A DNA stretch of 32,366 nt from Clostridia bacterium (GTDB taxonomy: Bacteria > Bacillota > Clostridia > Christensenellales > Aristaeellaceae). The notes below the pieces were generated by a model, which had not been told where the DNA came from, did not search any database, and worked only from the letters and a program-made list of their open reading frames with translations. The translations under genes were made by a program, and so were the position numbers. The stretch covers positions 1-32,366 of the forward strand of contig JAFUHD010000085.1 of the NCBI GenBank assembly GCA_017469025.1, read 5' to 3'. Numbering within the stretch: position 1 is the stretch's first letter; every line of letters begins with the position of its first letter. This document shows, in pieces, positions 234 to 27,870 of the stretch.

Positions 234-1976
234 GTGAAGTCTATGAATAAACGCATTGATAAGGAATTTATTAAAATTGTTAGGCTTCCGCAATTGTTAG
301 TTGCATTAATGCTAAGTTTCACAGTGTTTGTCTTTGCACCGGTTAATGCTTATCAGTTGAACAGGATGAACTTTGATTTTACAAGCAATCTGTTTTTGAT
401 ATATCTGGCGATTCCATTTACAGCGGCTGCTGTTGTTTTATTGGGAATCATGACAATTTCAATGCTGGCGGGCAGAAAGGCTTATATTGTCACAGTGTCT
501 GCTTTATTTGGTATTGGTGTCGCTTTTTATATTCAGGGTAATTTTCTTTGTCTGAGCAACTCTGTTTTGATGGGCGGTGAACCGGAGTGGACGACACTGA
601 TGCGGCCGGCATTAATTAATCTGGCAGTCTGGTTCCTTATTACTGTTGTCAGTATTGTTTTTGCAATTACAAAAGCAAGAATTTTTCTAAAAACGGCATT
701 GTACGCATCAGCTCTTCTTATAGTGATGGAAGGCGGAAGCCTGGCTGTTACAGGTTTTTTGTCTCAAAGAATTCCAGAAACATCCCAAAGAGCATATTCA
801 ACTGTAAAAGATGAATTTACCGTTTCAGAGAATGGCGATATCATAGTGTTTCTTCTGGATGCATTTGATACACGTTATATGCAGATGGCTATGGATGCTT
901 ATCCGGAGTGGATGGGAAGCTTTTCGGATTTTACTTATTATCCAAATACTTCGTCTACGTATCAAAGAACGGAACCATCCTATATAAACATGTTAACCAG
1001 AACACGCTATTATAACCAGGAGCCGTTTTATACATGGGTAGATATCGCACTGCAGGATGAACCATTTTTTACTGTCCTCAGGGAGAATGGTTATACTTTG
1101 GATTTTTATGCTGTACCGGATAACCTTTTTCCCCTGCAGATGGCAGATGTGGCAGAAAATGTAAAAAAACCTGAGGTACAGATTACACATCCATATTCAT
1201 TTGTATACACGCTTGAAAGAATGGCACTGTATAAATTCGGTCCCCTGGTCCTACAACCTTTTATGTATGGCGATTATGCGGTTCTGTTACAGAGAGATTA
1301 TGAACTGACTGAGATGAAATCCACCTGGTTTGAGGCTGATGCTCTAGAGAGAATGAGAAAACATGGCGGTTATTCTTTGAACGGAGACAGTAAATATTTT
1401 AAATTCTATCATTTTCAGGGAGCACATAGTCCTGGAAATCTTGACCGATATGGGAATACAATCGACGACAGTTCAGGAACGCTGGACGAGCAGGCATTGG
1501 GAAGTTTGAATATTGTTGGACAGTATTTACAGGCATTAAAAGATTGCGGCGCATATGATTCGTCAATGATTGTGATTATGGGAGACCATGGACGCCAGGA
1601 TAGTGTTTATGAAGGGAATAATACGGTTTGCAATCCGATATTTCTTACAAAATACCCTGGGCAGCGGTCTGTTACGGGAGAGATAACGGTTAATGAAGTG
1701 TCTCAGGTTTCATTGGAAGACCTGGCAGCAACCTGTATGGATGGTGCCGGACTGGCGTATGATGCTGATATCTTTGGCAAGCCCGCAAGGGACTGGGATG
1801 GAACCGAGAGAGAGAGAATTTTCTATGCTTATCGGCATTCATTTACAACAATGAATGGAGATACCTATTTGGAAGGCATGCAGGAATATAAGGTCCCACA
1901 GGATGCACGCGATTTACATCTTTATGAGTTGACTGGAAAGACGATTCCGGATAAACAATGGATTGAGGGATATTAA
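234..1976 (+). CDS. Membrane-anchored sulfatase/LtaS-like phosphotransferase (alkaline phosphatase superfamily)
   Basis: The 580-residue protein has about five hydrophobic helices (roughly residues 17-40, 53-78, 84-103, 128-146 and 152-175) followed by an extracytoplasmic alkaline-phosphatase-superfamily domain. Visible metal-site motifs are FLLDAFD (Asp209), a Thr/Ser-rich nucleophile region around 239-247, FYHFQGAHSP with His393 and His398, and IVIMGDHGRQD with Asp451-His452. This is the layout of lipoteichoic acid synthases and phosphoglycerol or phosphoethanolamine transferases, although the five-helix top and the sequence around the nucleophile differ from classic LtaS. The GTG start at 234 follows AAGGTG at 221-226; an ATG at 243 is a close alternative. 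The gene is first in a three-gene operon, and its TAA directly precedes the next ATG. Catalysis of polyol-phosphate transfer on the cell surface is inferred from the fold and from the TagF-like neighbour. A true sulfatase is less likely, since I see no C/S-x-P-x-R sulfatase signature. Confidence 0.8.
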   Translation: MKSMNKRIDKEFIKIVRLPQLLVALMLSFTVFVFAPVNAYQLNRMNFDFTSNLFLIYLAIPFTAAAVVLLGIMTISMLAGRKAYIVTVSALFGIGVAFYIQGNFLCLSNSVLMGGEPEWTTLMRPALINLAVWFLITVVSIVFAITKARIFLKTALYASALLIVMEGGSLAVTGFLSQRIPETSQRAYSTVKDEFTVSENGDIIVFLLDAFDTRYMQMAMDAYPEWMGSFSDFTYYPNTSSTYQRTEPSYINMLTRTRYYNQEPFYTWVDIALQDEPFFTVLRENGYTLDFYAVPDNLFPLQMADVAENVKKPEVQITHPYSFVYTLERMALYKFGPLVLQPFMYGDYAVLLQRDYELTEMKSTWFEADALERMRKHGGYSLNGDSKYFKFYHFQGAHSPGNLDRYGNTIDDSSGTLDEQALGSLNIVGQYLQALKDCGAYDSSMIVIMGDHGRQDSVYEGNNTVCNPIFLTKYPGQRSVTGEITVNEVSQVSLEDLAATCMDGAGLAYDADIFGKPARDWDGTERERIFYAYRHSFTTMNGDTYLEGMQEYKVPQDARDLHLYELTGKTIPDKQWIEGY

Positions 1977-3878
1977 ATGGAATGGTTTTCGAATCTGATG
2001 CTTCGGCTTATACTCTGGTGCTATGAAATATGTGGAAGCTTTGGATTGGCTATTATACTGTTTACTTTTATCAGCAAGCTGATGCTATTGCCGGCTTCTA
2101 TCTGGACATACTTAAACTCCATTGTAATGCTTCGCATTCAGCCAGATGTGAATTTTCTCAAAGTAAAGTATTATGGACAACAGGATATTATCGCGGAAGA
2201 AGAGGCTAAGCTGTTTAAGAAAGAAGGATATCATCCTTTTGTTACGATTATCCCCACACTTCTGCAATTCCTACTGCTGGCAGGTGTAGCAAATGCCATT
2301 CGGAAATGCATAGATTCAGGTATGTGCAACACCATGCAGCAGGGGATTGATTTGGCGGGAATTCCCATGAAGATGGGGCTGAGCGGAATTGTTTTTCCTG
2401 TAATATCCGGTTTTGCGGCATTGTGCTTATGTCTTGTTCAAAATCACAGCAATGTACTGCAGGCGGAACAGTCGAAGTTCAATCAGTATGGAATGATGAT
2501 TTTTTCCGTGGGTCTTTCTTTATATCTAGGATGGGTTGTTCCGTTGGGAACGGTATTGTACTGGGTTTGCAGCAATCTGATGGCGATTGTACAGCTGTAT
2601 CTTATGAATGCGATCGTTCGACCAAAGAGAATGATTGATTATGAAAAGCTGGAAGAGAGCCGGAAACAGTTAAAAGCTTTTCAGGAAGTTGGAAAAGAAA
2701 AGAATAAAGCGCTTCATGCAGCAACAAAGCGAAAAGAAAGGGCGGATTACAAGCGCTTTTTCTCGACGACCAATAAGCATCTTGTGTTTTATTCGGAGAA
2801 TAACGGTTTCTATAAGTATTATAGGGGAACGATAGAAGCTTTGCTGAGAAAAACAAAACTGACCATTCATTATATTACCAGTGATCCCAACGATCAGATT
2901 TTTGAAGCAGCTAAAGTTAACCCACGGATTGTGCCGTATTATATAGGCGAAAACAAACTGATATCCCTTATGATGCGGATGGATGCGGATGTTGTATGTA
3001 TGACAATGCCTGATCTGGATAATTACCATATTAAACGCAGCTATGTAAGAAATGATATAGAATATATCTATATTCCGCATGCTATGGGCAGTTATAATCT
3101 GACAACCAGAAAAGGGTCGACAGATCACTTTGATACGTTCTTTTGTTCCGGACCTCATCAGAAAATAGAAGCGGAGGAAAGCGAACGTATCTTTGATACT
3201 AAGAAAAAGAATAATCTTGAGATTGGATATCCGCTTCTTGATGACATGATCTCAGAATATCGCCCAACTGAACCACATGAAAAGAAACGGATACTTGTTG
3301 CACCTTCGTGGCAGACAGATAATATCATCGATTCCTGCCTCGAGCCACTGCTGGATCAATTGACCAGGCTGGATTGTGATGTCACGGTAAGACCACATCC
3401 GCAACATGTTCGCCACAAAGGTGAGTGGCTGAAAAAACTGTCTGAAAAATATGCAGAGAAAGGGATTCAGTTTCAACTGGATTTTACATCACATGATTCT
3501 GTGATGGCAGCTGATATTGTAATCACGGACTGGTCTGCCATCGGATTTGAATATTCATTTACATCACTGCACCCAACGGTCTTTATCAATACGCCGATGA
3601 AAATCATGAACCCTGAATATGAAAAGATTCCGGTTATCCCCATCAATATTACCTTGCGGGAAGAAATCGGGCATAGTGTTAATCCGGATGCATTAGACAG
3701 AATTGTTCCAATGATCAATGAAATGTTGAACAATATGGAACTTTGGAAGAGAAAAATAGAAGAAATACGTGGAAAAACGATGTATAATCTGGGGACAAGC
3801 GGTGAAGCTGGAGCAGACTACATTATCAAGTCGATTCAATCCCAAATAAACAAGCGGAAAGCGGAAAGGAATGTTTAG
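1977..3878 (+). CDS. YidC/Oxa1-like membrane insertase domain fused to TagF-like CDP-glycerol glycerophosphotransferase
   Basis: The 633-residue protein has two parts. Residues 1-215 look like a full YidC/Oxa1 core. A first helix (SFGLAIILFTFISKLMLLP) carries Lys34 where YidC has its groove arginine. It is followed by a cytosolic helical hairpin at 53-85 (IQPDVNFLKVKYYG onward) and helices near 88-108, 134-155, 170-190 and 192-212. A charged linker (215-262) leads to a GT-B domain with TagF/CDP-glycerol glycerophosphotransferase motifs: YIPHAMGS (His368), APSW (442-445), VRPHPQ (His474) and ITDWSAIGFEYSF (516-528). Known family role: TagF-like enzymes move glycerol-phosphate from CDP-glycerol onto a lipid-linked or polymer acceptor at the inner membrane face; YidC folds membrane proteins. 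Their union in one chain is inferred to couple polymer synthesis to the membrane. ATG follows the previous stop directly, with GAGGG inside the upstream gene as ribosome site. Confidence 0.85.
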   Translation: MEWFSNLMLRLILWCYEICGSFGLAIILFTFISKLMLLPASIWTYLNSIVMLRIQPDVNFLKVKYYGQQDIIAEEEAKLFKKEGYHPFVTIIPTLLQFLLLAGVANAIRKCIDSGMCNTMQQGIDLAGIPMKMGLSGIVFPVISGFAALCLCLVQNHSNVLQAEQSKFNQYGMMIFSVGLSLYLGWVVPLGTVLYWVCSNLMAIVQLYLMNAIVRPKRMIDYEKLEESRKQLKAFQEVGKEKNKALHAATKRKERADYKRFFSTTNKHLVFYSENNGFYKYYRGTIEALLRKTKLTIHYITSDPNDQIFEAAKVNPRIVPYYIGENKLISLMMRMDADVVCMTMPDLDNYHIKRSYVRNDIEYIYIPHAMGSYNLTTRKGSTDHFDTFFCSGPHQKIEAEESERIFDTKKKNNLEIGYPLLDDMISEYRPTEPHEKKRILVAPSWQTDNIIDSCLEPLLDQLTRLDCDVTVRPHPQHVRHKGEWLKKLSEKYAEKGIQFQLDFTSHDSVMAADIVITDWSAIGFEYSFTSLHPTVFINTPMKIMNPEYEKIPVIPINITLREEIGHSVNPDALDRIVPMINEMLNNMELWKRKIEEIRGKTMYNLGTSGEAGADYIIKSIQSQINKRKAERNV

Positions 3879-4124
3879 ATGAATAAAGGAATTATGGTAT
3901 TAGTACTGTATTGTGCTTTTGTGATGGCAATGGTTCCCGGGGATGCGTGCGCATATATTGATCCTTCTGCGACAACATTTTTGCTTCAGGCAATCATTGG
4001 TGCAGGTGTTGCAATTGCTGCCGGCGTATCAATATATTGGCGTAAGGCAAAGAAGAAAGTAAATAAAATGATTGGGAAAGATGAAAACAGTGGGAAAAAT
4101 GCGGAAAGTGATGATATTTTATAA
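3879..4124 (+). CDS. Small signal-peptide/transmembrane protein with YIDPS motif
   Basis: This 81-residue protein has a hydrophobic N-terminal signal-like segment (about 4-25, ending PGDACA), the motif YIDPSATTFLLQ at about 26-37, a glycine/alanine-rich transmembrane helix to about residue 53 (ending SIYW), a basic stop-transfer stretch (RKAKKKVNK) and a polar acidic tail. ATG follows the TAG of the preceding gene with no gap, and GGA of AAAGGA in that gene serves as ribosome site, so translation is probably coupled. My recollection, not checked here, is that small proteins with this YIDP-S/T motif recur beside membrane sulfatase-like genes in clostridia and coriobacteria. No function is known to me. 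A membrane partner or scaffold of the two upstream enzymes is an inference from position alone. Confidence 0.75.
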   Translation: MNKGIMVLVLYCAFVMAMVPGDACAYIDPSATTFLLQAIIGAGVAIAAGVSIYWRKAKKKVNKMIGKDENSGKNAESDDIL

Positions 4125-4139
4125 TTGATAATAAAATGG

Positions 4140-4175
4140 AGGTCTCAGAGATTTCTGAGATCTCTATTGTTTTTC
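4140..4175 (+). terminator. Rho-independent terminator of the YidC-TagF cassette
   Basis: A ten-base arm, AGGTCTCAGA (4140-4149), pairs with TCTGAGATCT (4154-4163) with one G-U pair around the loop GATT. A T-rich tract (CTATTGTTTTT) follows. It lies 16 bases after the small membrane-protein gene and closes that operon. Confidence 0.8.
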
Positions 4176-4195
4176 AATCCCAAATGACATGGATT

Positions 4196-10896: not shown

Positions 10897-12174
10897 TTAC
10901 AGCCATTTCAGGGCGTATTCGATAAATTCACTGAAAATGGAATTCGCCCAAGCAAACCATGGACGGGAATATGTGTTTGGGTCATCGGCATGGATGCCTT
11001 CGTGCATCTGAAAAGTTCCCGCATCAGTGTCCTGCAGCGTATGGACCAGAGAACGGACTTCATCGGGATCATTTGATGTGAGTCCCTGAATGCAGAGAGA
11101 GATCGGCCACACGAATGGTTTCGGAGTATGAGGACTGCCAATCCCCTTAAGCGCTGTCCCCTCGTAGTAATACGGATTTTCAGGGCTCAGAAGCATTTTG
11201 CGGGTATTCAGATAGACGGGATCATCTGCTGAAAGACATCCGAGGTACGGCAGGCTGAGAAGGCTCGGGACATTGGCATCATCCATCAGGATGAAGTTGC
11301 CGAATCCGTCAACTTCATAGGCATAGACTTCACCGAATTTCGGATGACGTACTATGGCATGCTGCCGCAGTCCATTTTCGATCTGCTCTTTGAGCATCCT
11401 TGCGTGTGAGGCAAGTGCAGCATCCGCAAGTGGGCCTTCTGCGATTTCACACAGATGACCAAGCTCGCAGGCGGCAAAGAAGTTGGATGGAACCAGATAT
11501 CCGTAGCGGCAGGCGTCATCACTGGGGCGGAAACCGCTCCAGGTCATTCCGGTATAGGCAACAGGAGTTCCTTTGCCGCCGCAGGGAAGCGTATCGGTTG
11601 GTGGACACTGGGTACGCTCATAGAAGTAAGCAGAGCGTTCTGCATGGTGCTGTTCTGTTTCGAAAACTTTCAGGATGGTTTGTGCTGCCTGGACAAAACC
11701 GGCATCAAAGATCCCGGAATCACCGGTCTTTTTCCAGAAACGGTAGGCAAGCCGGACAGGATAGCAGAGGGAGTCGATCTCATACTTGTTTTCCCAGATC
11801 CAAGGCTTTTGCGCAGGTGTCCAACTGGTGTGATCGTCCCGATAGTGCTGACCGTTGGCCTCACGGTTGAATGCATTTGCATACGGATCCAGACATATGT
11901 ATTGAAACTGACGGCGAAGCAGGCCTGATATAGCTTCTTTGATCTCTGGTATGGAATCGGCGTGCTTTAGATAGTGGTAAACCTGGGCAGAGGAGTCCCG
12001 AAGCCACATGGCCGGAATGTCGCCCGTAATCAGAAAAACAGTTCCATCAGACTGTTCAAGTGTGGTTTCCCATGTGCTTGCGTAGCACTTCCGATACATT
12101 TCAGCCAGCTTGGCATGACCTTTTTCAATGAGACTTTCGTAAACAGGGAGGCTCATATGATTCATGAGTTCCAT
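10897..12174 (-). CDS. GH125 exo-alpha-1,6-mannosidase (metal-independent)
   Basis: The 425-residue glycoside hydrolase is full length for family GH125. Signature segments are TGDIPAMWLRDSSAQV (50-65) near the N-terminus and TWSGFRPSDDACRYGYLVPS (211-230). Asp219/Asp220 there match the general acid known from the Clostridium perfringens enzyme (Asp220), and Glu392 in QMHEGIH matches its base (Glu393). Known role: inverting release of alpha-1,6-linked mannose from N-glycans or yeast mannan oligosaccharides. No signal peptide is visible, so it acts in the cytosol on imported fragments. ATG follows AAAGGAAT. It is monocistronic here; no mannoside transporter or regulator is adjacent. A palindrome just downstream of its promoter may be its operator. 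Confidence 0.92.
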   Translation of the reverse strand: MELMNHMSLPVYESLIEKGHAKLAEMYRKCYASTWETTLEQSDGTVFLITGDIPAMWLRDSSAQVYHYLKHADSIPEIKEAISGLLRRQFQYICLDPYANAFNREANGQHYRDDHTSWTPAQKPWIWENKYEIDSLCYPVRLAYRFWKKTGDSGIFDAGFVQAAQTILKVFETEQHHAERSAYFYERTQCPPTDTLPCGGKGTPVAYTGMTWSGFRPSDDACRYGYLVPSNFFAACELGHLCEIAEGPLADAALASHARMLKEQIENGLRQHAIVRHPKFGEVYAYEVDGFGNFILMDDANVPSLLSLPYLGCLSADDPVYLNTRKMLLSPENPYYYEGTALKGIGSPHTPKPFVWPISLCIQGLTSNDPDEVRSLVHTLQDTDAGTFQMHEGIHADDPNTYSRPWFAWANSIFSEFIEYALKWL

Positions 12175-12202
12175 AGTTTAATTCCTTTCTCAAGTTGTTT
12201 GG

Positions 12203-12225
12203 CAGGCTGTACTAAAAACAGCCTG
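12203..12225 (-). repeat. Palindrome at the GH125 transcription start, possible operator
   Basis: CAGGCTGT (12203-12210) and ACAGCCTG (12218-12225) are perfect inverted arms around seven bases. The centre is about 20 bases downstream of the -10 element on the minus strand. The position suits a repressor operator; a 5'-UTR hairpin is the alternative. Confidence 0.45.
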
Positions 12226-12234
12226 TGTCGAGGT

Positions 12235-12264
12235 ATTATATCGCGACAGGCAAAGACGCGTAAA
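12235..12264 (-). promoter_or_regulatory. Promoter of GH125 mannosidase gene
   Basis: On the minus strand TTTACG (12264-12259) and a perfect TATAAT (12240-12235) are 18 bases apart. Confidence 0.6.
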
Positions 12265-12302
12265 GGGCATGCGATGAAAAAGGCTCAGGAAGTTTCCTGG
12301 AT

Positions 12303-12330
12303 AAAAAAACGGCCCCCGAGGGAGCCGTGA
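12303..12330 (-). terminator. Terminator of the serC-serA operon
   Basis: On the minus strand a GC-rich stem (ACGGCTCCC / GGGGGCCGT with a T-G pair, loop TCG) is followed by a run of T residues, just after the serA stop. Confidence 0.8.
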
Positions 12331-12335
12331 TTCAA

Positions 12336-13514
12336 TCAGCAGGTCAAAAGGCGAACGCGCTTCATGCCATCGATAGCTGAAACTTTTTCGATCAGTGAAG
12401 CAGCATCACTTTCCGGAAGATCATCAATGTCGAGCACGGAAACAGCCATGTTTCCGCGGGAACGGTTGACAAGATCGGAAATGTTAAGAGAGAAGCCGGA
12501 AACAGCCGTCGTGATGGAACTCAGAACATTTGGAATGTTGCTGTGGATGCATACAAGACGGGGTTTGGAGAGCGGTGCAAGGTCAACAGCAGGCAGGTTG
12601 ACACTGTTACGGATGATACCGGATTCGAGATAATCCCTCGTCTGGGCAGCAGCCATGACAGCACAGTTTTCTTCGCTTTCCGGTGTGGAAGCACCGAGAT
12701 GGGGCAGACAAATGACGCCCTCGGTTTTAAGAAGCGTTTCGCTTCCGAAATCGGTCACATAACAGGCAACGCGCTCGTCTCCCAGCGCGGTAATGAGAGA
12801 GGCCTCATCAACCAGTCCGCCACGGGCGAAGTTCATGATGCGTACACCCTTCTTGCACAGGGAGAAGGCACGGCTGCCAATCATACCGCGGGTCTTGTCA
12901 TTCAGCGGGACATGAACGGTGAGAAAATCGCTTTCAGAGAAGAGCGCATCGAGAGAATTCTCATGCCGTACTTTTCTCGACAGCTTCCACGCATGTTCGA
13001 CAGAGATCATTGGGTCGTAGCCAATGACGTTCATGCCGAGTGCAACTGCTGCATTGGAGACAAGCACACCGATGGCACCGAGACCGATTACACCCAGCGT
13101 TTTTCCACGGAGTTCAGGACCAACAAACTGGCTCTTGCCTTTTTCAACAACCTTTTCGAGATTGTCTCCCTGGCCGATCTGTGTTTTTTCCCAGGCAATG
13201 CCGCCGATAATGTTCCGGCAGGAAAGGAGCATGGCTGCAATTACCAGCTCACAGACAGCGTTTGCATTGGCACCCGGTGTATTGAATACGCAGATACCGG
13301 CTTCACTGCAGACGTCAATGGGAATGTTATTGGTACCAGCACCGGCACGTGCTATGCACTGAACACTGTCAGGAATGGTCATGTCATGCATGGATGCAGA
13401 ACGGACAAGGATAGCATCCGGTGAGTCAAAGCTGTCGGATACATGGTAATTATCGCGCAGCTCGGAATAGATGGCCGGCGAAATTGAATTCAATGTTTTA
13501 ATATTATATTCCAT
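12336..13514 (-). CDS. serA: D-3-phosphoglycerate dehydrogenase
   Basis: The 392-residue enzyme is the short form with one C-terminal ACT domain. The NAD-binding Rossmann motif GVIGLGAIG lies at about 141-149; catalytic residues appear in NFARGGLVDE (Arg231) and LPHLGASTPES (His272). The ACT-like domain begins near residue 320 (PRLVCIHSNIPNVLSSI) and usually senses serine. Known reaction: 3-phosphoglycerate to 3-phosphohydroxypyruvate, first step of serine synthesis. The ATG at 13514 is chosen for its GGAGG four bases upstream; an extension to 13550 would run back toward serC without a ribosome site. It lies 16 bases after serC in the same operon and ends at a strong terminator. Confidence 0.93.
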   Translation of the reverse strand: MEYNIKTLNSISPAIYSELRDNYHVSDSFDSPDAILVRSASMHDMTIPDSVQCIARAGAGTNNIPIDVCSEAGICVFNTPGANANAVCELVIAAMLLSCRNIIGGIAWEKTQIGQGDNLEKVVEKGKSQFVGPELRGKTLGVIGLGAIGVLVSNAAVALGMNVIGYDPMISVEHAWKLSRKVRHENSLDALFSESDFLTVHVPLNDKTRGMIGSRAFSLCKKGVRIMNFARGGLVDEASLITALGDERVACYVTDFGSETLLKTEGVICLPHLGASTPESEENCAVMAAAQTRDYLESGIIRNSVNLPAVDLAPLSKPRLVCIHSNIPNVLSSITTAVSGFSLNISDLVNRSRGNMAVSVLDIDDLPESDAASLIEKVSAIDGMKRVRLLTC

Positions 13515-13530
13515 AATTCCTCCATGGCCA

Positions 13531-14601
13531 TCATGCATTGGCAAGTTCAAATGCTTTCATGAAATCTATAAGTGCTTTGACGCCTTCAATCGGCATTGCA
13601 TTGTAGATGCTGGCACGCATGCCGCCGACGATACGATGACCTTTGACATTGACAAGCCCTTTTGCACCGGCTTCTTTGCAGAATTTGGCATCCATATCCG
13701 GATCACCGGTTACAAAAGTGACATTCATACGGCTGCGGTCTTCGCGTACTGCAGTTCCCTTGAAGAGTTTGCTGTTGTCAATGAAGTCATACAGAAGATT
13801 GGCTTTCTCAATGTTGATCTTTTCCAGCGCAGCAACGCCGCCCTGGGCTTTGATCCACTTGAAAACAAGACCGGCAACGTAGATGCCGAAGCAGTTCGGC
13901 GTATTCAGCATGCTGTCTTTGTCAGCCATTTCCTTAAAGTTCATGACCTTGGGCGTGATGGGCATGGCATTCCCAAGCAGATCTTCACGTACGATGACGA
14001 TGACGACACCTGCGGGAGCAACGTTTTTCTGTGCGCCGGCATAGATCAGACCGAACTTGGAGACATCATAGACTTCACTCAGAATATTGGAGGACATGTC
14101 TGCAACCAGCGGAATATTGCCGGTTTCCGGAAGCTTCGACCAACGGGTACCATAAATTGTATTATTCGTGGTAATATGAACATAGTTCGCGTCCGGACTC
14201 AGTGTATATGCCGGAATATGAGTGTAATTATCATCGCGGGATGAACCTGCCACGATAACTTCACCGTATTTTTTGGCTTCAACCAGTGCGTTGTGGGCAA
14301 AATTGCCGCTGTCTACATAATCAGCCTTGCCGCCGCGCATCAGGTTCATGGCCACAGCCGCAAACATGGCGGTCGCACCACCCTGAAGGAACAGAACTTT
14401 ATATCCCTCGGGGATGCCCATAACCTCCTTGAAGTTGGCAACAGCAGCTTCAAAAATGTCCAGATACATTTTTGAACGATGGCTCATTTCCATGACGGAC
14501 ATGCCGGTAGTGCCATAGCAGAGAAGGTCACGCTGAACCTCTTCCAGCACAGGAAGCGGCAGCATGGACGGGCCGGGTGCGAAGTTAAAAACGCGTTCCA
14601 T
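13531..14601 (-). CDS. serC: Phosphoserine aminotransferase
   Basis: The 356-residue class-V aminotransferase begins with MERVFNFAPGPSMLP, typical of SerC. The pyridoxal-phosphate lysine is Lys192 in YAGAQKNVAPAG. Other family marks are LQGGAT (72-77), TTNNTIYGT (144-152) and the C-terminal GGMRASIYNAMP. Known reaction: 3-phosphohydroxypyruvate plus glutamate to phosphoserine. The ATG at 14601 follows GAGGTG with six-base spacing; a 24-residue upstream extension lacks support. It leads a two-gene operon with serA. No serB phosphatase gene is in the window. Confidence 0.94.
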   Translation of the reverse strand: MERVFNFAPGPSMLPLPVLEEVQRDLLCYGTTGMSVMEMSHRSKMYLDIFEAAVANFKEVMGIPEGYKVLFLQGGATAMFAAVAMNLMRGGKADYVDSGNFAHNALVEAKKYGEVIVAGSSRDDNYTHIPAYTLSPDANYVHITTNNTIYGTRWSKLPETGNIPLVADMSSNILSEVYDVSKFGLIYAGAQKNVAPAGVVIVIVREDLLGNAMPITPKVMNFKEMADKDSMLNTPNCFGIYVAGLVFKWIKAQGGVAALEKINIEKANLLYDFIDNSKLFKGTAVREDRSRMNVTFVTGDPDMDAKFCKEAGAKGLVNVKGHRIVGGMRASIYNAMPIEGVKALIDFMKAFELANA

Positions 14602-23008: not shown

Positions 23009-24058
23009 ATGAGCGTAATTACTTTTATCTGTGCCGGGCAGATGAACTCGGCGATTACTTTTCCGGCTTTTGAAAACGGGCATGAGGTACGTCTTGTAGG
23101 TTCACCTCTGGATCGTGAAATTATTGCAAGGCTTCAGCAGGACAACTACCATCCGACGCTGAAGCGTACGCTTCACAGTGGAATCAGGTATTACCAGATT
23201 GAAGAACTGGAGGAGGCGCTTCAGGGAGCAGATCTGATTCTTAATGGTGTCAGCAGCTTCGGACTTGACTGGTTCAGCAGTGAAATTGTACCTGGACTGC
23301 CCGAGCACATTCCGATTCTGAGTGTGACCAAGGGAATGGTGGATATGGACGATGGTACAATGGTTCCATATCCGCATGTACTGGCAGCCAGGCAGCCAGC
23401 AGGCCGGCATATGAGTTTTAATGCGATCGGTGGACCGTGTACAAGCTATGAACTGGCCGATCACGATGACAGTCATGTTGCCTTCTGCGGGGAAAATCTG
23501 GAGACACTTGGATATATCCGCAGTCTGCTCGCAACACCGTATTATCATATCAGCCTGTCTACGAATGTGATTGGTGTTGAATGTGCGGTTGCCATGAAGA
23601 ATGCATATGCGCTCGGCGTTTCATTGGCAGTCGGTCTTGCGGAGAAAAGGGACGGAAGGATCGGCGCCGTGCACTATAATTCCCAGGCAGCATTGTTTGG
23701 ACAGGGTGTCCGGGAAATGACACATCTGCTTGAACTGATTGGCGGCGGTCCTGAAAATATAATCTATGGAGCCGGAGATCTTTATGTGACGGTCTTTGGC
23801 GGACGTACACGGAAAATCGGAACACTTCTTGGACGAGGCATGTCATTTGATGAGGCCATGCAGGCACTGGAAGGCGTGACGCTTGAATCCATAGTCATTG
23901 CGACGCGAACAGCAAGAACTGTTAGAAAGCTGGCTGAGCGGGGTATTGTATGTCTTGATGAATTCCCGCTGCTGATGCATGTGGATGAAATCATTAATCA
24001 GGGAAGACCGGTGGATATTCCCTGGGAAGCATTTACGATGGTTGCCGGTCGTGAATGA
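23009..24058 (+). CDS. GpsA-like NAD(P)-dependent polyol-phosphate dehydrogenase
   Basis: The 349-residue protein follows the NAD(P)-dependent glycerol-3-phosphate dehydrogenase plan: an N-terminal Rossmann domain (NGHEVRLVG, then LSVTKGM) and a C-terminal helical domain with VECAVAMKNAYALGVSLAVGL, which contains the catalytic-type lysine region, then YGAGDLYVTVFGGRTRKIGTLL. The glycine-rich loop is unusual, reading F-I-C-A-G-Q-M-N-S-A where GpsA has G-A-G-x-W-G-T-A. The ATG at 23009 follows GGAGG with five-base spacing. It is 11 bases ahead of an AraB-type kinase in the same operon. I infer a dehydrogenase for a sugar or polyol phosphate other than, or besides, glycerol 3-phosphate. Housekeeping GpsA cannot be excluded. 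Confidence 0.8.
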   Translation: MSVITFICAGQMNSAITFPAFENGHEVRLVGSPLDREIIARLQQDNYHPTLKRTLHSGIRYYQIEELEEALQGADLILNGVSSFGLDWFSSEIVPGLPEHIPILSVTKGMVDMDDGTMVPYPHVLAARQPAGRHMSFNAIGGPCTSYELADHDDSHVAFCGENLETLGYIRSLLATPYYHISLSTNVIGVECAVAMKNAYALGVSLAVGLAEKRDGRIGAVHYNSQAALFGQGVREMTHLLELIGGGPENIIYGAGDLYVTVFGGRTRKIGTLLGRGMSFDEAMQALEGVTLESIVIATRTARTVRKLAERGIVCLDEFPLLMHVDEIINQGRPVDIPWEAFTMVAGRE

Positions 24059-24069
24059 TGGAGGGAACT

Positions 24070-25728
24070 GTGTCAAAATACGCAATAGGCATAGACTATG
24101 GGACACTTTCAGTCCGTGCGCTGCTGATAGATATTCATACAGGTGATAAAATCGCACAGCGCGTCTATGAATATCCTCATGCTGTAATGACCGGCTGTCT
24201 TCCAACAGGTGAACAGCTTCAGCCTGACTGGGCGCTTCAACATCCGCAGGATTATCTGGACGGACTGGTGGAAACTGTTTCCGGAATAATGAAGGACAGC
24301 GGGGTTGCGCCTCAAAATGTGGTCGGACTGGCCATCGATGTGACGGCGTCGACCATCCTGCCGGTTTATCGCAACAAACAGCCTCTCTGCATGACCAGGC
24401 AGTTTGAACGTGAGCCGCATGCATATATCAAGATGTGGAAGCATCATGGCGGCGAAGCGGAAGCAGTGCGGATGACAGCAGTCGCACTGGAAAGGCAGGA
24501 ACCATGGCTTAAACGTTATGGCGGGAAGATTTCAAGTGAGTGGATGTTTCCAAAGCTCCTGGAGACACTTCACTGTGCGCCGGATGTTGCCAAATCAGCA
24601 GACTATTTTCTTGAGGTCATGGACTGGCTGACCTGGATTCTGACGGATCAGCTGAGTGTTTCCGCCTGCGGAACAGGTTACAAGGCTCTATGTGCGGAGG
24701 GCAGTTTTCCTGGACAGGAGTACTTTGAAGCTCTGGACCCGGAACTGGCATGGCTGGTGCAGTCAAAAATGACTCTGCCTGCTTCGAAAATTGGTGAATG
24801 TGCAGGCTGTTTGTGTCCTGAAATGGCGGGAAAACTGCATCTGCTGCCCGGAATACCGATTGGTGTGCCAATCATTGATGCACACAGTTCTGTACTCGGA
24901 GGCGGTATTTCCAGGCCGGGAGAGATGATGATTATCATGGGAACATCTTCCTGTCACCTCATGCTTAGCGCAAGAGATGCTGCCATACCAGGAATACAGG
25001 GAAATGTCAGAGATGGCATACTTCCGGGATTTTATGGGATTGAGGCAGGCCAGTCCTGTGTTGGTGATCATTTTGACTGGGTCATCCGGAACATGTTTCC
25101 GGAAACGTATGCCGTCGAAGCGCGGAAAATGGGAATCAGTCCGCATGCACTGATGGCAGACAAGCTTAAAGGATATCGTGCCGGTTCAAATGGACTGCTA
25201 GCTTTGGACTGGTTTAATGGTGTCCGGTCACCGCTGATGGACTTTGATTTGAATGGCCTGATCATAGGATTCAATCTGTCAACGAAGCCGGAGGATGTCT
25301 ATCTTGCGTTAATAGAGGCAACTGCCTTTGGCACACGGGCGATCTGTGACAGCTTTGAACAGGCGGGTGTACCGGTGGACAGCATCATACTGGGCGGCGG
25401 TATTCCGTCCAAAAATCCGTTTATCGTTCAGGTATATGCGGATGTGCTGGACAGAAACATCCGTATCTGCGCAAGCGATCAGGCGTGCGCACTGGGGGCT
25501 GCCATGCTGGGCATCCAAGCAGCCTCTCCATCAGTAACGGGATATGGTTCACTGTCGGAGATCGTTGCAACGCTGGGACGGGCACAGGGACAGATTTTTG
25601 TTCCAGATCCGGCACAGGCTGCCCGCTATCATGAACTATACAAGGATTATCTGCTGCTGCAAGACTGCTTTGGCAGAAAAGACAAGGCGCTTATGTACCG
25701 TCTGACCGGCCGCCGGAAGGATACATAA
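24070..25728 (+). CDS. FGGY-family kinase, ribulokinase (AraB) type
   Basis: The 552-residue protein is close to the AraB length. It has YAIGIDYGTLSVRALLID at the start, GLAIDVTASTILPV, EREPHAYIKMWKHH and RYGGKISSEWMFPKLLETL, all with AraB-type sequence. The C-terminal half has GTSSCHLML, GGGIPSKNPFIVQVYADVL and a SDQACALGAAM motif of the ATP domain. Known reaction of the family: ATP-dependent phosphorylation of L- or D-ribulose and related ketopentoses. I prefer the GTG start at 24070, which follows GGAGGG; ATG codons at 24055/24058 would overlap the upstream stop and lack a site. No araA or araD is present, so L-arabinose catabolism is not the obvious role. Confidence 0.88.
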   Translation: MSKYAIGIDYGTLSVRALLIDIHTGDKIAQRVYEYPHAVMTGCLPTGEQLQPDWALQHPQDYLDGLVETVSGIMKDSGVAPQNVVGLAIDVTASTILPVYRNKQPLCMTRQFEREPHAYIKMWKHHGGEAEAVRMTAVALERQEPWLKRYGGKISSEWMFPKLLETLHCAPDVAKSADYFLEVMDWLTWILTDQLSVSACGTGYKALCAEGSFPGQEYFEALDPELAWLVQSKMTLPASKIGECAGCLCPEMAGKLHLLPGIPIGVPIIDAHSSVLGGGISRPGEMMIIMGTSSCHLMLSARDAAIPGIQGNVRDGILPGFYGIEAGQSCVGDHFDWVIRNMFPETYAVEARKMGISPHALMADKLKGYRAGSNGLLALDWFNGVRSPLMDFDLNGLIIGFNLSTKPEDVYLALIEATAFGTRAICDSFEQAGVPVDSIILGGGIPSKNPFIVQVYADVLDRNIRICASDQACALGAAMLGIQAASPSVTGYGSLSEIVATLGRAQGQIFVPDPAQAARYHELYKDYLLLQDCFGRKDKALMYRLTGRRKDT

Positions 25729-25768
25729 AAAAGCGTATTCCCGGGTTTACCCGGGGATACGCTTTTTT
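25729..25768. terminator. Bidirectional terminator between convergent sugar-phosphate operons
   Basis: A long stem reaches from AAAAGCGTATTCCCGGG to CCCGGGGATACGCTTTTTT around TTTA, with one internal mismatch and T-runs in both directions. Confidence 0.88.
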
Positions 25769-25780
25769 CATGTACTCACA

Positions 25781-26461
25781 TCAGAAATGGAGAAGCTCTA
25801 TTACATCCAGAAGTGTAGTACAGACATGATCACAGAAGGGTGTCCATGTCTCCTGCCATGGCAGTAGATCAGGAACCATACATACCTGCATACCGCCACG
25901 CCTGCCGGCCTGGATGCCGCTTAATGAGTCTTCAAGGACCAGACAGTCCTGCGGCTGAACATGCAGGCGTTGGGCAGCCAGCAGGAAGATGTCAGGTTCC
26001 GGTTTTGAACGAATTGGATCATCGCCGCAGGCTATGACCGAAAAGCGGTTTGTCAGATTGCAGGCGCACAGGGAAAGTGCAATGCGGCGGGTTCCACTGG
26101 AGGAAGCAAGTGCGTGCGGAATACTGAGCCGGTCCAGTTCGTCCAGCAGTTCAATGGCACCGGGTTTTGCGGAAAGCTTTCCCGCACCAATCAGCTCCGC
26201 ATAATGCTTCTGGGTTAGTGGCCAGAAGCGGTCGGGATTAAACGGAATGTTCATATGGCTTGCAAAGATCTGATTGCTGGCGGCAGCAGTCTCGCCCAGT
26301 GTACTCAAAAGCACGTCGTAGGGCATGTCAATGCCCATATCGGTAAAGGCACGCCGGTCGCATTCCATGGCAATCCGTTCGGAGTCGATCAGGAGGCCGT
26401 CCATATCAAAAAGTACAGCGCGTATTGGCCTCAGGGAAGTGCCGCCAAGAATAAAGCTCAT
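25781..26461 (-). CDS. HAD-superfamily phosphatase, beta-phosphoglucomutase-like
   Basis: The 226-residue subclass-I HAD enzyme has LFDMDGLLIDSE (nucleophile Asp19, acid/base Asp21), ASSSGT (motif II), Lys in SKPEPDIFLLAA (motif III) and VLEDSLSGIQAG (motif IV). The helical cap lies between about residues 30 and 95. Known roles of close relatives: sugar-phosphate phosphatases or mutases. ATG follows AGAGGA. It lies 35 bases after the AraM-like gene and is third in the operon, so its substrate is probably an intermediate or by-product of that pathway. AraL of Bacillus, the analogous partner of AraM, is a different HAD subclass. Confidence 0.87.
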   Translation of the reverse strand: MSFILGGTSLRPIRAVLFDMDGLLIDSERIAMECDRRAFTDMGIDMPYDVLLSTLGETAAASNQIFASHMNIPFNPDRFWPLTQKHYAELIGAGKLSAKPGAIELLDELDRLSIPHALASSSGTRRIALSLCACNLTNRFSVIACGDDPIRSKPEPDIFLLAAQRLHVQPQDCLVLEDSLSGIQAGRRGGMQVCMVPDLLPWQETWTPFCDHVCTTLLDVIELLHF

Positions 26462-26496
26462 GAAATATCCTCTTTCAATATGTACAGGTCGGGTCT

Positions 26497-27846
26497 TCAG
26501 CTGTTATATGGAATGCTGGCGACTGCATCATCAAGCAGGCCGATATCCCACATCAAACTGCTGACAAGGTATTTGTCACGAAGATCACGGCTGCCAAGGA
26601 GTGCATCCTGAGTATCTTTGCGGTTCAGACCGAGGTCTGCCGGAGTTACCGGCATTTGAAGCCGCCGCATGAGATCAATAATGGACTGACGTGACGGTAG
26701 TTCATCCTTCATTGCCTGACGGATTATCGGCCAGTTGGCAGCAATCAGGTCAAGACGCTTCTGGTGACCGGCAGGGTCATTTTTGCCGGATGCCGCTTCA
26801 ATCTTGAATATTTCAGGTGCGACATTGCCGAAGATGCGATGGACTTCCGAGGCCCAGTGTTCAGGTGAAAATGCTCTCATGGCTGCATTGGCTTTTTCCA
26901 GGTCAACGGTGTCGGTGTTCAGATAATTTTCGAATACCCACAGAGCCAGCTGGGTACCGACGGCAACCTGGATGCCATGAAGGTCGCCCTGGGTGCCTTC
27001 ACGCAGGCTCTTCATTTCCCACATGTGACTGAAATAATGGTCAAGACCACTGGCCGGACGGCTGTTTCCTGCATACGCCATAGACAGACCGGACAGGACC
27101 AGTCCGTCAAAAACAGCGGCAATGGCTTCATCATCACGGGCAAGAAGTTTGTCGGACAGGGCAACGATTTTGGCAAGCGCCCGCCGTACCATCTCGGCAA
27201 TTTCTTCATCGTACGCATCTCCATGTACCATGGCAGCAATCCGCCACTCACAGACAGCCACGTACTTGGCCAGCATATCGCCAATACCGGCCTTGAGCAT
27301 GATATCCGGTGCAGTTTTTAAAATGTCAGTATCTCCGATGATGGCCTGGGGACAGGCATTATAGAGACTGACTTTGACTCTGTTCTGAATCATGGAGCCG
27401 GAATTGGAGGCATAACCGTCCATGGAAGGGGCAGTACCGACAACCATGCTCGGTTTTCCGGCAGCGTGAGCGACAACTTTGCAGCAGTCATTGATGACGC
27501 CGCTGCCGACAGCCAGAAGAATATCACAGGAAGGATCAAAAGCCATCGTCAGGGAGCCGACAGCGTTTTCATCCGGTTCAATATGTCCGTTAAACGGGAA
27601 GACAAAAGACGTATAAGGAATGTGTGCTTCATCCAGTACAGCCATTACTTTCCGGCCGCCGGCTTCGAGCGTATTGTGGTCCATCACAACAAATGGCTTT
27701 TTTCTGCCGAGTGCTTCAAGTGCTTCCGGTACTTTTTTTACAACACCCTTTCCGACTGCATAATAATGCAATCCACAATCCTTGTATGAATGTGCACCGG
27801 GTGTGATCAATTCTTCTACAGACATTTCGCAGATACGTTTTTTCAT
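26497..27846 (-). CDS. AraM/glycerol-1-phosphate dehydrogenase-like protein
   Basis: This 449-residue member of the iron/zinc alcohol dehydrogenase-dehydroquinate synthase superfamily is of the sn-glycerol-1-phosphate dehydrogenase (AraM/EgsA) type. The NAD loop is VGSGVINDCCK (113-123), followed by VGTAPSMDGYAS. Metal ligands are Asp190 (GIGDMLAKY), His270 (SGLDHYFSH) and His290 (DLHGIQVAVGT). Bacillus AraM (about 394 residues) reduces dihydroxyacetone phosphate to glycerol 1-phosphate; this protein is longer at both ends. ATG at 27846 follows AAAGGTGG. It lies between a PfkB kinase and a HAD phosphatase. A different polyol phosphate as substrate is possible. Confidence 0.87.
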   Translation of the reverse strand: MKKRICEMSVEELITPGAHSYKDCGLHYYAVGKGVVKKVPEALEALGRKKPFVVMDHNTLEAGGRKVMAVLDEAHIPYTSFVFPFNGHIEPDENAVGSLTMAFDPSCDILLAVGSGVINDCCKVVAHAAGKPSMVVGTAPSMDGYASNSGSMIQNRVKVSLYNACPQAIIGDTDILKTAPDIMLKAGIGDMLAKYVAVCEWRIAAMVHGDAYDEEIAEMVRRALAKIVALSDKLLARDDEAIAAVFDGLVLSGLSMAYAGNSRPASGLDHYFSHMWEMKSLREGTQGDLHGIQVAVGTQLALWVFENYLNTDTVDLEKANAAMRAFSPEHWASEVHRIFGNVAPEIFKIEAASGKNDPAGHQKRLDLIAANWPIIRQAMKDELPSRQSIIDLMRRLQMPVTPADLGLNRKDTQDALLGSRDLRDKYLVSSLMWDIGLLDDAVASIPYNS

Positions 27847-27870
27847 ATGCAAGACCACCTTTTTCTATCT

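Follow-up and report, generated by a model that had tools for sequence, protein, structure and literature searches.

Phospholipids supply the head groups that sulfatase-fold phosphotransferases such as LtaS and EptA transfer, the known PF04464 enzymes act on lipid-linked glycans, and YidC accepts small proteins with a short translocated N-terminus. Here we describe a locus in which relatives of all three occur together: a cassette of three genes, A, B and C, in a 32,366-nucleotide stretch of DNA from a Clostridia bacterium of the family Aristaeellaceae (contig JAFUHD010000085.1 of assembly GCA_017469025.1, positions 1 to 32,366; this whole stretch is called the window). Among the closest described systems are the Lic and Pnt pathways, in which LicA, LicC and LicD serve phosphocholine, and Ppm, Ppd, a 2-aminoethylphosphonate (AEP) aminotransferase and PntC lead to cytidine monophosphate (CMP)-AEP. 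Rice et al. 2019 (PMC6697681), who describe PntC, propose that CMP-AEP goes to the cell surface, report LicD-like phosphotransferases or glycosyltransferases near the donor genes, and call the tailoring steps after phosphoenolpyruvate (PEP) mutase enigmatic. Another is the Dlt system, in which DltX is a microprotein with an invariant tyrosine that carries the transferred group (PMC12148441). Our comparisons make it probable that A, B and C belong to an envelope machine of four modules whose task is to attach small phosphorus head groups to a surface glycan or lipid. The cassette spans positions 234-4124 and is organized as follows.

234..1976, + strand: gene A, putative membrane-anchored LtaS/sulfatase-superfamily phosphotransferase, with N-terminal transmembrane (TM) helices followed by an ectodomain; the likely true start is the ATG at 243
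858-860, 969-971, 1425-1427 and 1584-1589, + strand: conserved sites of gene A, namely D209, T246 (nucleophile-type), H398 and D451-H452
1977..3878, + strand: gene B, YidC-TagF fusion of 633 amino acids
2040..2609, + strand: YidC/Oxa1-like domain of gene B (residues 22-211), with the Lys34 codon at 2076-2078
2745..3851, + strand: TagF-like GT-B domain of gene B (residues ~257-625)
3078-3080, 3390-3401, 3528-3536 and 3549-3551, + strand: TagF-like sites of gene B, namely H368, RPHP, DWS and E525
3879..4124, + strand: gene C, microprotein of 81 amino acids with a signal-peptide-like start, one TM helix and a Lys-rich cytosolic-type tail
3954-3965, + strand: YIDP motif of gene C
4135..4178, + strand: terminator-like element common to A, B and C, with a stem of 15 pairs (4135-4168) and a T-rich tail

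The three genes abut, and the terminator-like element has the longest stem of the six sites that a consensus scan found in the region (3.3 expected). A sequence-only reading of the window had described an LtaS-like enzyme, a YidC-TagF fusion and a small membrane protein lying end to end before one shared terminator, and domain, fold and alignment results uphold both the parts and the layout.

To follow the cassette beyond the window, we used a family sample, 200 genomes from the window's family with its own among them, and a second sample of 66 loci from a scan of named genomes, the majority metagenome bins. Together they give 93 loci (27 from the family, counting the window's, and the 66), and the two sets may share species. 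The gene B fusion is present in 27 of the 200 family genomes, spread over 11 genus codes, and the records of the 66 further loci include Lachnospiraceae, Oscillospiraceae, Ruminococcus, Erysipelotrichaceae, Solobacterium, Bacilli, Peptococcaceae, Eggerthellaceae, Coriobacteriia; L052 comes from Roseburia inulinivorans DSM 16841. These counts answer one question raised by the sequence-only reading, how far the fusion architecture extends across genomes; the other was whether the three genes travel together. At E<1e-6, gene C was found in 26 of the 27 fusion genomes and in 0 of the 173 others, and the remaining fusion genome (G034) carries B on a 3.4-kb contig; eight weaker C matches (E 2e-6 to 0.01) all lie in genomes without B. 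The B-C pairing is thus nearly obligate in the family sample. Over all 93 loci, C was detected in 85; in L007 it falls just beyond the fetched flank, and seven loci remain without it. In 55 of the 66 loci, C is a same-strand neighbour of B at a distance below 600 bp, and in 39 A is at most 4 kb from B; where both flanks reach 4 kb or more (41 loci), the counts are 36 and 24. The three-gene cassette is real and conserved. A chance fusion or assembly artefact is ruled out because 85 distinct full-length B homologues, obtained from the 93 loci, align with one another, and gene B is not a housekeeping YidC caught by mistake, because the window's genome has a separate YidC. Five B loci (L043-L047), in records titled Candidatus Saccharibacteria (titles that may be wrong), are 49-52% identical to the window's and adjoin genes that by eye resemble ATP-binding cassette (ABC) polymer exporters.

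The N-terminal domain of gene B has a YidC fold and matches PF02096 (YidC/Oxa1) at 87.4 bits (cut-off 35); the score with TIGR03592, 78.7 bits, lies below the curated cut-off of 84.3. All three YidC-domain relatives scanned pass TIGR03592 (L052, 106.9; L056, 119.3; L137, 88.8), so automatic annotation may label such fusions membrane insertases. The C-terminal domain scores above the PF04464 cut-off and has a GT-B fold, with TagF as its best fold match. The groove lysine and the histidines on which the sequence-only reading leaned are kept among homologues: position 34, in the groove (TM1), is Lys in 84 of the 85 B proteins and Arg in the remaining one, and H368, R472-P475 (with H474), D518-S520 and E525 are kept in 85/85. 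H368 and H474 are candidates for the catalytic His pair of the PF04464 family (His444 in TagF).

Gene A of the window scores 18.4 against the Pfam Sulfatase cut-off of 25, which its relatives in L058 (52.4) and L146 (50.7) pass. A profile of A relatives matches choline-sulfatase (E 2.8e-9) and LtaS (2w5q, E 5.6e-9), and the fold search is led by PbgA/YejM and sulfatases. Within the A family, T246 is kept in 44 of 46 proteins and D209, H398, D451 and H452 in all 46; judged by motif, T246 would be the nucleophile and the other four the metal ligands. H393 (43/46) and R528 (46/46) are also kept. Hydropathy and the signal peptide suggest the topology of A and C, with the catalytic domain of A outside.

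The microprotein encoded by gene C carries the motif Y-[ILV]-D-[PI], followed by one TM helix and the Lys-rich tail. Tyr and Asp of the motif are present in 85/85 loci, the motif having been located with a pattern that requires both and that matched at all 85. The signal peptide and the Lys-rich tail would place the Tyr at the outer membrane face. In 14 of the 85 loci, C is fused to the N-terminus of A; in the model of the fused L058 protein, the first 163 residues mostly have a predicted local distance difference test score (pLDDT) <70, and we draw no claim about packing of C on A from it. Small S26 signal peptidase genes lie near B and C in twelve loci (L033, L034, L036, L037, L051, L055, L058, L087, L093, L095, L006 and L024), accompanying 7 of the 23 stand-alone C proteins that begin like signal peptides and 1 of the 25 that do not (p 0.02, confounded by kinship). 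A signal peptidase dedicated to C was set aside because this association is weak and confounded.

Further evidence that the modules work together comes from a sister architecture in which the fusions are exchanged. The closest stand-alone relatives of the TagF domain of B (23-27% identity) start with YIDPGTGS and a TM helix, and several of these YIDP-TagF proteins adjoin fusions of YidC to LtaS. Three such fusions (L136, L137 and L138) score 90, 80 and 76 bits against PF02096 and 24, 24 and 21 bits against Sulfatase, all below its cut-off of 25, and the A profile matches YidC-LtaS fusions at E 1e-24 to 1e-41. YidC-LtaS occurs, often in several copies, in 8 of 291 class-level genomes scanned. 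For the 24 open reading frames read, in 20 regions, YIDP-TagF lies within 150 bp of 16 (13 on the same strand) and elsewhere in the region for 3, with none in view for 5. D209, T246, H398, D451, H452 and K473 of A are kept in 24/24, and profile alignment of C with the YIDP start gives a probability of 90.4 (E 1.4e-6, 37 columns). The modules therefore occur in three arrangements: A with YidC-TagF and YIDP, as in the window; YidC-TagF with YIDP-A; and YIDP-TagF with YidC-LtaS. Because the fusions swap partners while the module set persists, the four modules appear to form one working assembly, and we regard this exchange as strong evidence for a single machine. Three proteins, YIDP-TagF from L137, C from L034 and the C-A fusion from L058, matched no NCBIfam model at E<0.001.

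The sister form also bears on what the YidC part does. Its groove position is Asn in 20, Gln in 2 and Ser in 2 of the 24 proteins, with no charge, which argues that the role shared by the YidC part is not canonical insertion. Of the sequence-only reading, which had singled out the groove Lys and offered insertion of the small protein as one role for the domain, the Lys therefore holds for the window's architecture, and insertion as the shared role is argued against. It would follow from a true insertase dedicated to C (small, N-out) or to A, and fused to the transferase for co-regulation only, that B should keep the groove charge, as it does; C is also short, with the short translocated N-terminus of known YidC substrates, and accompanies B almost strictly in the family sample. 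We nonetheless consider such an insertase improbable, since the sister form has the C counterpart fused to TagF beside an uncharged YidC part and the window's genome retains its housekeeping YidC.

The nature of the transferred group is suggested by the genes beside B. For the 66 loci, neighbours were clustered, 20 representatives were scanned, and donor types were then assigned by BLAST to the representatives at E<=1e-15. Head-group donor genes lie in the fetched flanks of 44 of the 66 loci (43 without a lone nucleotidyltransferase). The representatives score above their cut-offs for PEP mutase (TIGR02320, 408.8 vs 319.6), phosphonopyruvate decarboxylase (TIGR03297, 466.6 vs 312.5) and AEP aminotransferase (TIGR03301, 474.6 vs 360.8). 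Further neighbours are an iron alcohol dehydrogenase (best match under its cut-off), BCCT transporters, ABC importers of unknown solute, a LicC-like cytidylyltransferase-choline kinase fusion, and a LicC-like/decarboxylase-like fusion (hereafter the decarboxylase fusion), whose best solved relative is 6oux (threonine phosphate decarboxylase-like, 172.6 bits; LicC 1jyk, 52.4; PntC 6pd1, 49.5). By count, the decarboxylase fusion is found at 13 of the 66 loci, PEP mutase and phosphonopyruvate decarboxylase at 11 each, choline kinase at 7, AEP aminotransferase, iron alcohol dehydrogenase and a TagD-like/dehydrogenase fusion at 6 each, BCCT transporters at 4 and ABC importers at 3. We read these neighbours as making CMP-AEP and cytidine diphosphate (CDP)-choline, and probably CMP-hydroxyethylphosphonate and CDP-ethanolamine or a near relative. 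Cultured isolates with an AEP-type locus are R. inulinivorans (L052) and Lachnospiraceae NC2008. Head-group tailoring is likely the process served, and the donor class is read from this gene context.

Two of the donor genes were also compared with their background in the family sample. PEP mutase scores over its cut-off in 60 of the 200 family genomes, comprising 19 of the 27 with the fusion and 41 of the 173 others (p 3.5e-6, kinship ignored), and in 4 of these 19 the gene sits less than 5 kb from B on a shared contig (0.09 expected). The decarboxylase fusion, at E<=1e-40, was found in 2 of the 200 family genomes, one (G163) beside B, compared with 13 of the 66 fusion loci; at most six candidates were scored per genome for this background, and the two samples differ in taxonomy. 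G163, a single-contig genome, has two B-C copies on contig C1 (L006, L100, L102, L150), one of which adjoins the decarboxylase fusion, with PEP mutase and the LicC/choline kinase fusion within ~20 kb. The TagD-like fusion joins a cytidylyltransferase to a GFO/IDH dehydrogenase beside B (L043 at 12093-14490, L045, L046, L051, L081 and L090), mostly accompanied by an aminotransferase of HisC-like or class V type; these loci perhaps use a CDP-activated head group built on a three-carbon amino alcohol. Donor genes of the same four types as at the B loci also lie in 5 of 22 sister-form regions, as follows.

L185: LicC/PntC-like, AEP aminotransferase, PEP mutase and decarboxylase genes in a row
L186: BCCT transporter, LicC and choline kinase genes, on the opposite strand
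L188: decarboxylase, iron alcohol dehydrogenase and PEP mutase genes, between the two fusions
L192: decarboxylase fusion gene
L139: LicC gene

Linkage of CMP/CDP donor genes to the transferase, as in Lic/Pnt systems, is thus present in relatives (44/66 and 5/22) and unseen in the window's assembly. The sequence-only reading had held that the cassette makes or modifies a polyol-phosphate polymer. Its surface phospho-transfer role stands as likely from the donor genes; its polymer does not, the donors being for amino-alcohol phosphates and phosphonates. Polymerization or modification of a polyol phosphate from CDP-glycerol or CDP-ribitol would fit the PF04464 membership and the TagF fold match of B, and small TagD-like genes (by eye and by clustering) occur at 5 of the 66 loci (L044, L045, L047, L080 and L081). 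In most of the 44 loci having any donor gene, however, the donors are for amino-alcohol phosphates or phosphonates, the sister architecture repeats them, and by eye no TagD was recognized among the four CTP_transf_like matches of the window's assembly. After this search for TagD-type genes in the assembly and the loci, the polyol explanation is not supported and we judge it very unlikely.

A possible trace of the donor lies within B itself. Among the 85 B proteins, 53 carry a donor label. Gly follows H368 in 32 of the 34 rows whose donors are phosphate-type or unassigned nucleotidyltransferases, and another residue stands there in 16 of the 19 phosphonate rows (p 8.5e-9, kinship ignored). Eight of those 16 non-Gly rows have HYPLST, and 7 of the 8 have an iron alcohol dehydrogenase or a triple-fused PEP mutase in view. 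On the tree of labelled rows, the donor label changes 23 times and the division between phosphonate and other changes 9 times, indicating that donors have been swapped often. The contrast is clearest at L033, a locus with AEP genes and HSMDS, whose B protein clusters with those of L035 and L037, which have the decarboxylase fusion and HGMDS. The window's motif is HAMGS, and its B protein lies on a long branch (1.07).

Several observations weigh against the envelope machine that we favour, or against parts of it. The pattern at residue 369 was noticed before the donor labels were fixed, and a kinship-aware test on supported branches, with 6 independent pairs, found 3.6 changing the same way and 0 the opposite (median p 0.125); since the association weakens to this level once kinship is allowed for, it is suggestive only. 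No donor gene is in view at 22 of the 66 loci, some on short contigs, or in 17 of the 22 sister-form regions. The sister form lacks H393 and R528 in this alignment, although both are conserved in A's own family. Structural comparison of A does not favour LtaS over other sulfatase-fold enzymes, and for B the fold match to GT-B epimerases is as good as that to TagF. In the window's assembly, PEP mutase and choline kinase were not found, and none of the 6 candidates scored (of 13) matched the decarboxylase fusion at E<=1e-40. In 27 of the 66 loci no A is in view up to 4 kb from B, some of these loci being truncated by contig ends. And the acceptor, the lipid intermediate and flipping are steps that we infer.

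The loci without A in view would be expected if the TagF-like domain decorated a lipid-linked glycan precursor directly, on the cytosolic side of the membrane, as LicD would, with the YidC part an anchor only and A doing a separate job, such as GacH-like glycerol-phosphate transfer from phosphatidylglycerol. The habits of PF04464 enzymes noted above agree with this, as does the setting of L043-L047 among ABC exporter- and glycosyltransferase-like genes (by eye). The joining of YidC to LtaS and of YIDP to TagF in the sister form, and of C to A in 14 loci, point instead to one machine, and we consider direct cytosolic transfer unlikely.

For the window's own copy, donor assignment from its genome failed: there was no PEP mutase, choline kinase or scored decarboxylase fusion, and the contig begins 233 bases before A. 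Six NTP_transf_3 matches in the assembly resemble other enzymes by eye. The assembly is 93.7% complete with 4.9% contamination and measures 4.25 Mb, and the ten same-genus genomes listed are 2.3-3.1 Mb; the bin is possibly mixed. Further along the window (24055-27858), an FGGY sugar kinase and an Fe-ADH_2 family dehydrogenase may belong to a pentose-use cluster.

How a four-module machine might tailor the surface can be outlined in three steps. The predicted layout suits transfer across a membrane: TagF and the CMP/CDP donors on the inner side, the catalytic domain of A on the outer side, and YidC with YIDP between them. The cytosolic TagF-like domain would take a head group from a CMP- or CDP-activated donor (by species, CMP-AEP, a CMP-hydroxyalkylphosphonate, CDP-choline or CDP-ethanolamine) and transfer it to an acceptor in the membrane, in the simplest case a lipid. 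Together, the YidC-like domain and the YIDP microprotein would form the membrane part, holding the transferase at the bilayer and passing or presenting the loaded acceptor. The LtaS-like ectodomain would then use its conserved Thr and metal site to move the head group onto a surface polymer. Such a two-step relay from inside to outside by way of a lipid carrier is possible, though we propose it tentatively; the direction of transfer, the acceptor and any lipid intermediate are what it presumes. Because LtaS and EptA draw on phospholipids, the simplest relay is one in which the TagF-like domain makes a head-group lipid that crosses at the YidC-like part and A hands the group on. More speculative still is the idea that the YidC-like fold, free of insertase duty, itself carries across either the loaded lipid or, in the manner of DltX, a Tyr-loaded YIDP protein before the ectodomain transfers the group. 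If this last idea is true, it would supply the transfer step that bacterial phosphonate surface tailoring lacks, a YidC-family protein would be repurposed as a conduit for lipid or head group, and the family would gain a role outside protein insertion.

Head-group tailoring is a known kind of process, the cassette's machinery is apparently undescribed, and the relay would be a new class. Among the open-access papers listed, judged by title or the start of the abstract, none describes the YidC-TagF fusion, a microprotein with YIDP or a transferase in this role, which is weak evidence; so far, then, the sequence-only reading was right to call the system possibly undescribed. The terms YidC, TagF and glycerophosphotransferase are absent from the main text of Rice et al. 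2019 (PMC6697681). The cassette is a concrete, testable candidate for the route of CMP-activated phosphonates and phospho-amines to the surface outside LicD systems, resting on four modules that persist through different fusions beside four donor-gene types. It is found in gut bacteria, where its proposed cargo would be aminoethylphosphonate, choline or ethanolamine groups on the cell surface.

Set against known systems one by one, the cassette resembles each in part. Like TagF and TarL, B has a GT-B fold, a PF04464 match and conserved His motifs, but it is fused to YidC and its adjoining donor genes are mostly not for CDP-glycerol; the window's HAMGS after the first His also differs from what we take to be the usual TagF motif. 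With YidC/Oxa1 insertases B shares the fold, the Pfam family and the TM1 Lys, whereas it is fused to an enzyme and the charge is missing in the sister architecture. A has the TM helices, sulfatase-fold ectodomain, Thr nucleophile and Asp/His metal site of LtaS/GacH and EptA/MCR, yet its sequence is far from LtaS, it is fused to the YIDP microprotein at some loci, and its counterpart is fused to YidC in the sister form. The Dlt system (PMC12148441) offers the same plan of an inside enzyme, a membrane microprotein with an invariant extracytoplasmic Tyr, and an outside transferase, with the Tyr motif fused to a partner in related systems; the proteins (DltB, DltX, DltD) are unrelated to those of the cassette, and the chemistry is acyl rather than phosphoryl or phosphonyl. 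A carrier role for the invariant Tyr of C on this template is worth testing. With Lic/Pnt, finally, the cassette's relatives share the kinds of donor gene beside them (a PEP mutase-cytidylyltransferase fusion, LicC/PntC-like genes and choline kinase), and the set of YidC-TagF, YIDP and LtaS-like proteins stands where LicD-like transferases stand in the main text of PMC6697681.

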